Source: Synergistota bacterium | GTDB taxonomy: Bacteria; Synergistota; JAGHAJ01 | Assembly: GCA_021161545.1 (NCBI GenBank) | Contig: JAGHAJ010000145.1 | Location: forward strand, 1-15,688 | Length of the DNA stretch: 15,688 nucleotides | Direction of reading: 5' to 3' | In this document: piece by piece, positions 5,019 through 6,787 of the stretch | How positions within the stretch are numbered: the first letter of the stretch is position 1 | Layout of the letters: each line of letters begins with the position of its first letter | Notes under the pieces: generated by a model | Seen by the model: only the letters and a program-made list of their open reading frames with translations | Told to the model about the DNA's origin: nothing | Databases searched by the model: none | Translations under genes and position numbers: made by a program

Positions 5019-6155
5019 TCAGTGACAGAGAGTTCTATATATTTCCTCATACCGCTTTACCACCTCAGATATAGAAAAATTCTCCATAATACGCTTTCGA
5101 GCTCTAAACCCAAGTTGCTTGCGATCTTCTTTGCTCATGTCTAAAAGACTCTCAATTGCCTCAGCTAATGAAGAAGCATCCTTAGGCAAAACAACCCTTC
5201 CGGTATCATCAACAATTAACGCAGAGTCTCCAACATCCGTGACAACACATGGAACTCCACACGCCATTGCCTCACCTATCACGTTTGGGAATGCCTCTCC
5301 AGAAGAAGAAGAAACAAAAACATCAAGAGACGCCATTATACGGGGGATATCCTCCCTCTCCCCAAGTATATGAAAACACTTCCGTAAATCAAATTTATCA
5401 ATCAACGTAGCTATTTCCTTATTCTTCCATGTAACGTCACGTCCACACATTAAAAAATGGACATCAAAACCATCTTCACATATCTTGCTCGCAGAAGTAA
5501 TAAAATTCTTGTGGCCTTTCATGGGATGAAATCTCGCTATCATTCCAACCAAAACGGTGTCTTCCGACACTCCCAATTCATTCCTTACTGAGATACGCGC
5601 TTGAGTATCTGGCTTAAACACCTTCGTATCAAACCCATTAGGAACAACAACCATCTTCGTAGAATCATACCCCAATGAGGCATGCACCTTTAAAGATGCA
5701 TTTGAACAGCATATAATCTTATCTGGCACCCACCTCGACAACCAAGCACAAAGCTTTGCAACCAATACAGTCCTCCTTTTAATAACATCTATATCAAGGT
5801 TACTATGATGAATACCCCACACCACATGAATCCTACCCATAATCTTAGCAATCACACCGCCAATAAGGTCTGCATGATACATCCACGTCTGAACTATGTC
5901 CGGTTGCCAATCTCTCAAAAACCTTGCCAGTTTCACAACTCCAGCCAGAGATGGCACTCCCCTTTTCATACCAAGGCTCAACACTGGGACCCCTAACTTT
6001 TCTATCTTCGCCCCCAACATCCCAGCTTCCATCATAGAGACCACACTCCACAAAAATTCATCACTATTCGCCTCTTTAAGTAGCTTATAAAGCATCACTT
6101 CTGCTCCGCCAACATCAAGATCAGTAATAATATGAGCAATCTTTATCTTCTCCAT
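5019..6155 (-). CDS. Glycosyltransferase family 4
   Basis: A GT-B fold, retaining glycosyltransferase of 378 residues. The N-terminus IKIAHIITDLDVGGAEVML is the classic GT4 opening with the GGAE turn. It continues with PDIVQTWMYHADLIGGVIA and VWGIHHSN. The donor domain has VVVPNGFDTKVFKPD, VGMIARFHPMKGHKNFI and the E-x7-E signature SSGEAFPNVIGEAMACGVP near residues 283-300. It should transfer a sugar from a nucleotide donor to the growing lipid-linked repeat in the cytoplasm; the sugar cannot be read from sequence. ATG 6155 overlaps the TGA of the preceding dehydrogenase remnant in TGATG, so the two are translationally coupled. A GTG at 6158 is also in frame but the ATG fits the AGG-containing ribosome site better. 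The next gene is another GT4 82 bases downstream, so it lies mid-operon. Confidence 0.87.
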   Translation of the reverse strand: MEKIKIAHIITDLDVGGAEVMLYKLLKEANSDEFLWSVVSMMEAGMLGAKIEKLGVPVLSLGMKRGVPSLAGVVKLARFLRDWQPDIVQTWMYHADLIGGVIAKIMGRIHVVWGIHHSNLDIDVIKRRTVLVAKLCAWLSRWVPDKIICCSNASLKVHASLGYDSTKMVVVPNGFDTKVFKPDTQARISVRNELGVSEDTVLVGMIARFHPMKGHKNFITSASKICEDGFDVHFLMCGRDVTWKNKEIATLIDKFDLRKCFHILGEREDIPRIMASLDVFVSSSSGEAFPNVIGEAMACGVPCVVTDVGDSALIVDDTGRVVLPKDASSLAEAIESLLDMSKEDRKQLGFRARKRIMENFSISEVVKRYEEIYRTLCH

Positions 6156-6490
6156 CACAACCTGCCATCCACAAACCTCGCATCAAAAAAACCCTTAACA
6201 TCATAAACGACACAAGCACCGCTTCCCCTGAGTCTCCGAATGTCGATTTCTCTGAACTTATCATGTGCCACCGTTAGTACAACAGCATCATAAACATTAA
6301 GGTAAAGTCCCTCTATATTAATAAGCTCTATACCGTAATTATGCATGACATCCTCAACATTAGCAACAGGATCATATACATCCATATCATACCCCACACT
6401 ATCAAAAACCCTTCCAAACTCCACTGCTAACGGTAATCCAACATACCCTAATCCTACAACACAAATACACAACCCATTAGATCCTTCCAA
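6155..6490 (-). pseudogene. Nucleotide-sugar (UDP-HexNAc/UDP-glucose type) dehydrogenase with in-frame internal deletion
   Basis: The ORF encodes 111 residues where this family (WbpA, WecC, TviB/VipA) has about 420. Residues 7-35 are its N-terminal NAD-binding start, ICVVGLGYVGLPLAVEFG then VGYD. At about residue 36 (near 6385) the protein jumps to the C-terminal UDP-binding domain: DVYDPVANVEDVMHNYGIEL, YDAVVLTVAHDKF and CVVYDVKGFF, ending in DGRL as full-length members do. About 300 residues are absent, including most of the Rossmann domain, the dimer helix and the catalytic cysteine, so it cannot oxidise a UDP-sugar. The frame is intact across the junction and the start is well marked: TTG 6490 with AAGGAGG seven bases upstream. 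Its stop overlaps the next GT4 start. It may simply be a remnant kept as the operon head for translation of the GT4 genes, or a small stable protein with another role. Confidence 0.85.
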
Positions 6491-6504: not shown

Positions 6505-6537
6505 ATCCGATGTAGTACTACTCTCAAAAACACATAA

Positions 6538-6566
6538 ATTCCATCCTATCCCAAGGTATAGGTCAA
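6538..6566 (-). promoter_or_regulatory. Candidate promoter for the dehydrogenase-remnant/GT4/GT4/GT-C operon
   Basis: On the minus strand TTGACC (6566-6561, five of six to the -35 consensus) is followed after 17 bases by TGGAAT (6543-6538, four of six to the -10 consensus). The start site would fall near 6531, about 40 bases before TTG 6490. Position and spacing are good, but the -10 is weak. Confidence 0.35.
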
Positions 6567-6787
6567 CTGAATTACTTCCTGAGAATAGCTTTGAAAAAAA
6601 CTTGGACCCTTACTACAAACCTACCGTAACTATTCCCTTCTCCTTTTTAACATATCAACCCGGCAAAACCTACTTATCCATAATTCCCTAAGGTCAAAAC
6701 GTTTACTCCTCTATAGAAAACCACACACCACTTTTCATACATAGACCAAAGTCAGGATAAGCACTCCATAAAGAATCAAAAATGCAT

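Follow-up and report, generated by a model that had tools for sequence, protein, structure and literature searches.

The contig that we analysed (15,688 nucleotides, or 15.7 kb, hereafter the window) carries a tviB gene that has lost its middle three quarters while preserving its reading frame. What is left is an ORF of 111 aa, internal to the contig, at 6490..6155 on the reverse strand, with a TTG start and a TGA stop. Pfam, phmmer, and NCBIfam identify it as an in-frame remnant of a TviB-type UDP-HexNAc 6-dehydrogenase. We think that it is probably an enzymatically dead stump, left by an in-frame internal deletion, whose translation still feeds the glycosyltransferase gene that follows on the same strand (GT4, 5019..6155, identified by Pfam), and that it has stayed tidy through this effect and through the recency of the deletion. 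This is ordinary gene decay and not a new kind of system.

The two halves of the ORF match a single family. When the ORFs of related loci were searched with phmmer, residues ~8-38 matched the N-terminus and residues ~31-111 the C-terminus of single homologous ORFs of 404-491 aa, a two-match pattern seen in each intact TviB-type homologue. The best NCBIfam model for the remnant is TviB (NF011729), which matches it in two stretches with 53.5 bits. This is below the cut-off of 592 bits for full-length members, as are the intact TviB of the phylum, which score 417-495 bits. Since both ends are best matched by this model, and given the gene order described below, the ORF descends from the TviB family. 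The C-terminal part matches PF03720 with 37.1 bits (cut-off of 30, E = 4e-9), over model positions 28-102 of 103 only. Such a match, together with the presence of both ends of one enzyme in the right order and frame, shows that the ORF did not arise by chance, and we could also rule out two independent short genes.

The N-terminal part, delimited by alignment to intact TviB N-termini, comprises residues 7-37 (LCICVVGLGYVGLPLAVEFGRVFDSVGYDMD; 6380..6472 on the reverse strand) and corresponds to the first beta-alpha-beta unit of the NAD-binding Rossmann domain. PF03721 (187 positions) is thus represented by no more than its first ~31 residues, and had no match in the remnant at E <= 0.001. The C-terminal part, residues 38-111 (6158..6379, same strand), runs from the second strand of the UDP-binding domain to its end. 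The original prediction of a UDP-binding C-terminus was therefore right about the domain but not about its completeness, since PF03720 is matched from position 28 of 103. The deletion junction was placed at 6380..6388 on the same strand by the overlap of the two phmmer matches and by a comparison of distances, and its codons D35-M36-D37 fit either parent segment. In 21 intact homologues, 305-331 residues (mostly 318-319) separate the joining points, compared with 5 in the remnant, which means that ~313 residues, or ~940 bp, are missing with the frame kept. This bears out the initial reading of the sequence as a dehydrogenase N-terminus joined in frame to a ~75-residue C-terminus, with ~300 residues lost.

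According to the alignment, the missing part includes what follows in the NAD domain, the entire central domain, the catalytic segment (GLVGGHCIGVDPYY in homologues), and the beta-alpha unit that opens the UDP domain (TFKENxPDxRNS), whose place is now taken by the N-terminal beta-alpha unit. The central domain with the catalytic cysteine region (PF00984, GGHCIGVDPYY) has no match in the window, and its sole match in the genome is on another contig (C178). Compared with TviB/WbpO-type UDP-N-acetylglucosamine (galactosamine) 6-dehydrogenases (NF011729; PF03721-PF00984-PF03720), the remnant shares the first ~37 and last ~75 residues, the motifs GLGYVGLP, VYDP, TVAH, VVYDVKG, and VDGRL, and the genomic setting, a surface-polysaccharide cluster in which the same GT4 lies downstream, as it does in relatives, but differs by the absence of the regions listed above. 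In this enzyme family, oxidation is not known to be possible once the catalytic cysteine region is lost. With the catalytic centre gone, the product of the remnant would not be able to act as the enzyme. The loss of both catalytic and substrate regions, i.e., of parts required for the ancestral function, is what is expected of a pseudogene.

To place the stump in its context, we used 185 genomes of the phylum, including its own, where the nearest relatives share only the phylum with the source. Only 3 of the 184 remaining genomes contained a close homologue of GT4 (45-50% identity), and each of these three has a TviB gene on the same strand, 1.3-2.9 kb upstream of it. The order is TviB, GT4, epimerase, and GT4a in one genome (G154); TviB (cut by the contig end), methyltransferase, GT4, epimerase, and GT4a in another (G150); and TviB (with an internal sequence gap), TviC-type epimerase, and GT4a in the third (G069). 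Considering this systematic presence of TviB upstream of GT4, the stump is most likely the cluster's own tviB and not a stray fragment, and its gene order points to descent from a tviB native to this polysaccharide cluster. Between the stump and GT4 there is no counterpart of the epimerase that the relatives have between TviB and GT4a. The closest epimerase-like protein in the genome (40% identity) is encoded on contig C59 and is not part of a recognisable glycan cluster. In this respect G069 resembles the Vi-type order tviB-tviC-glycosyltransferase, with TviB, a TviC-type epimerase, and a GT4a homologue in a row, whereas the window differs from it. A cluster elsewhere in the phylum (L086, 8317-14569, G059:C79) has DUF2334, an intact TviB, and GT4 genes resembling those of the window.

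The translation signals of the remnant, as originally predicted, are all present in the sequence. A Shine-Dalgarno (SD) motif, AAGGAGG (6504-6498, reverse strand), precedes the TTG at 6490 by 7 nt, and its anti-SD energy of -11.6 kcal/mol ranks among the strongest found at the gene starts that we examined in the window. The stop of the remnant and the start of GT4 overlap by 1 nt in TGATG (6157-6153) on this strand. The use of the ATG at 6155-6153 as the start of GT4 is backed by the N-termini of the relatives (MPDKIRLTHVITGLNVGGAEN), and it is preceded by a weak and distant SD match only (-6.3 at spacing 16). Several other genes of the window also have weak SDs, and therefore this weakness alone does not prove that GT4 depends on the upstream ORF. 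A stop/start overlap on one strand is the arrangement of coupled gene pairs, and strict coupling was observed in 13 of 14 overlapping pairs tested by Huber et al. (PMC6728339). The pair studied here resembles those with termination-reinitiation at TGATG/ATGA in its 1-nt overlap, strong upstream SD, and weak downstream SD; it differs from them in that the upstream ORF is a gene remnant and in that coupling is inferred. Together, these signals and the published pairs suggest that GT4 is likely translated by ribosomes that read the stump. If GT4 is translated in this way, the frame would remain open even if the peptide itself were useless.

The region directly before the SD of the stump (6505..6787, reverse strand) is the longest intergenic gap in the window and may hold a leader or a promoter. 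We found no gene in it, as its three-frame translation is full of stops, no Rfam RNA element in these 283 bp, and no convincing promoter, the matches being at chance level.

How old is the deletion? The stump keeps 26 of the 31 positions conserved in the family (12/15 in the N-terminal part and 14/16 in the C-terminal part), which is the same as, or slightly below, the number in most intact enzymes and near their lower edge. Its mean identity to the family is 0.43, within the range of intact members (0.39-0.50), and its terminal branch is the second longest of 23. The number of retained sites and the identity suggest a recent deletion, remaining constraint, or both. Decay of tviB is not rare in the phylum: of about 17 copies, 3 others are broken, with in-frame stops in G008 and G004 and a frameshift in G057, although sequencing errors may account for some of them. 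None of the others among these about 17 TviB-type genes is an in-frame stump with both translation signals. The two genes with stops (L056, G008:C71; L070, G004:C5) each have a single in-frame TAA and come from members of one family (f3). The frameshift-split TviB (L042, 2716-3985, G057:C18) is followed by an intact epimerase and preceded by repeated sequence that translates as HPEERSDEGSG-like peptides. A comparable situation is known from the pneumococcal cps3 cluster, with its truncated pgm and region I pseudogenes (PMC3182177), where a sugar-nucleotide gene is also reduced and its neighbours are intact. That case involves a 3' truncation, a stop codon, and degenerate regions, whereas here a single in-frame internal deletion left both ends.

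We can now put forward the explanation that we favour. A single internal deletion of ~940 bp would have joined codon ~36 to the codon ~75 before the end, in frame, leaving a product that, deprived of its catalytic region, would be unable to oxidise sugar. The mRNA would still be translated through the stump, and the terminating ribosome would restart at the overlapping ATG to produce GT4. The need for an open frame to make GT4, with a recent date of the deletion, would then account for the tidy stump, and the case suggests how a dead gene may be held open by the gene downstream. An argument against this reading is that one deletion in three preserves the frame by chance. Hence, the anatomy (the strong SD, the weak SD of GT4, TGATG, and the precedent of PMC6728339) fits the proposal in the original prediction that the remnant is kept for driving the translation of the operon, but a recent and neutral in-frame deletion explains the open frame equally well. 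A young pseudogene without function, open merely because its deletion was recent and in frame, seems to us a distinctly less probable account. It agrees with the conserved positions that are kept, which indicate that little time has passed or that constraint remains, with an identity still in the range of intact enzymes at the end of a rather long branch, and with the other broken copies of the phylum. It is weakened by TGATG and the strong SD, since these make an effect on GT4 translation likely, be it selected or not.

A role for the peptide itself is an alternative that we regard as improbable. In this scenario, the 111-aa chimera, made of the GxGxxG beta-alpha unit and the UDP-binding half, would be kept because it binds a nucleotide, a nucleotide sugar, or a partner. 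The deletion cut both Rossmann-like domains at their second beta strand, and SVGYDM of the N-terminal domain was joined to MDVYDP of the C-terminal one. As these strands are equivalent, tblastn aligns residues 6-111 of the remnant in one piece with the 112 C-terminal residues encoded by a full-length tviB gene, with the beta-alpha unit of the N-domain replacing the lost one. The product could thus fold as a single chimeric domain. With a mixed alignment of both types of pieces, AlphaFold2 gave a model with pLDDT 81, pTM 0.75, and a merged strand at 34-39, which VIA-align superposed on the C-domains of UDP-sugar dehydrogenases (4xrr: Z 9.7, rmsd 2.7, 107 residues; 3g79: Z 7.9, rmsd 2.4, 101 residues). 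This fold is imposed by the alignment, and the prediction from the sequence alone has a pLDDT of 37. GxGxxG and most conserved residues of the C-domain are retained, but there are no catalytic residues. In intact genes, the DNA at the joining points was no more similar than expected (run of 4.0, compared with 4.3 at random), and we thus saw no repeat or local similarity there that might have caused the deletion. The coincidence of the strands would then be either luck or a sign that foldable products are kept. By our own estimate such an equivalence would occur by chance in a few per cent of cases, a judgement made, like the observation of the equivalence itself, after the fact. If the chimera folds, it would be a natural test of whether a single deletion can merge two Rossmann-like domains from the same enzyme. 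That this collapse of an internally repeated fold gave birth, in one step, to an expressed nucleotide-binding mini-protein with a role, e.g., in binding a UDP-sugar or a former partner, is a reading to which we give very little credence.

The comparative data also argue against a widespread mini-dehydrogenase family. There is no similar short ORF among the related loci, where all are full length, or among the PF03720 matches listed for the 185 genomes of the phylum. The short PF03720 frames among these listed matches are one frameshift (G057) and otherwise apparent contig ends. We considered whether one-piece tblastn matches in plasmid tviB genes could be mini-genes, and the one examined (Caballeronia, a 1278-bp CDS) is full length and matched through its C-domain. 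The remnant had no match in phage sequences, and our search of the literature found nothing comparable on natural in-frame minis of this enzyme. Hence, the suggestion that a mini-protein has a role gains some ground from the predicted single-domain fold but we found no relative with the same mini-gene.

Even less probable, in our opinion, is an assembly artefact or a minority variant, where the population would have a full-length gene that the assembler bridged or where a deletion variant was assembled. The genome is indeed a draft, with 288 contigs and 82% completeness. However, the join is exactly in frame and inside a 15.7-kb contig, and the junction has only a few ambiguous codons and no long repeat able to collapse the assembly.

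The loss of this enzyme has implications for the glycan. The original prediction that uronic acid must come from another gene, or that the glycan has changed, is supported as far as the draft allows. We found no intact TviB elsewhere in the draft, although it could be missing from it given the completeness of 82%, and contig C178 encodes the only intact nucleotide-sugar dehydrogenase, a UDP-glucose 6-dehydrogenase. UDP-HexNAcA has thus probably been lost from the glycan of this cell, and the remnant is a record of this probable disappearance of an acidic sugar from a surface glycan, in a lineage for which no close relatives have been sequenced. The window is a Wzx/Wzy-type polysaccharide cluster, with a WbaP-type initiating transferase, Wzy-like and Wzx-like proteins, several glycosyltransferases, an ATP-grasp protein, and DUF2334; besides the stump, no sugar-nucleotide synthesis genes were recognised on the contig. 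The dehydrogenase of C178 belongs to a second glycan cluster (L041, 1722-3979, G000:C178), where the genes after it encode a UDP-xylose-synthase/4,6-dehydratase-like protein and an acyltransferase-like protein.
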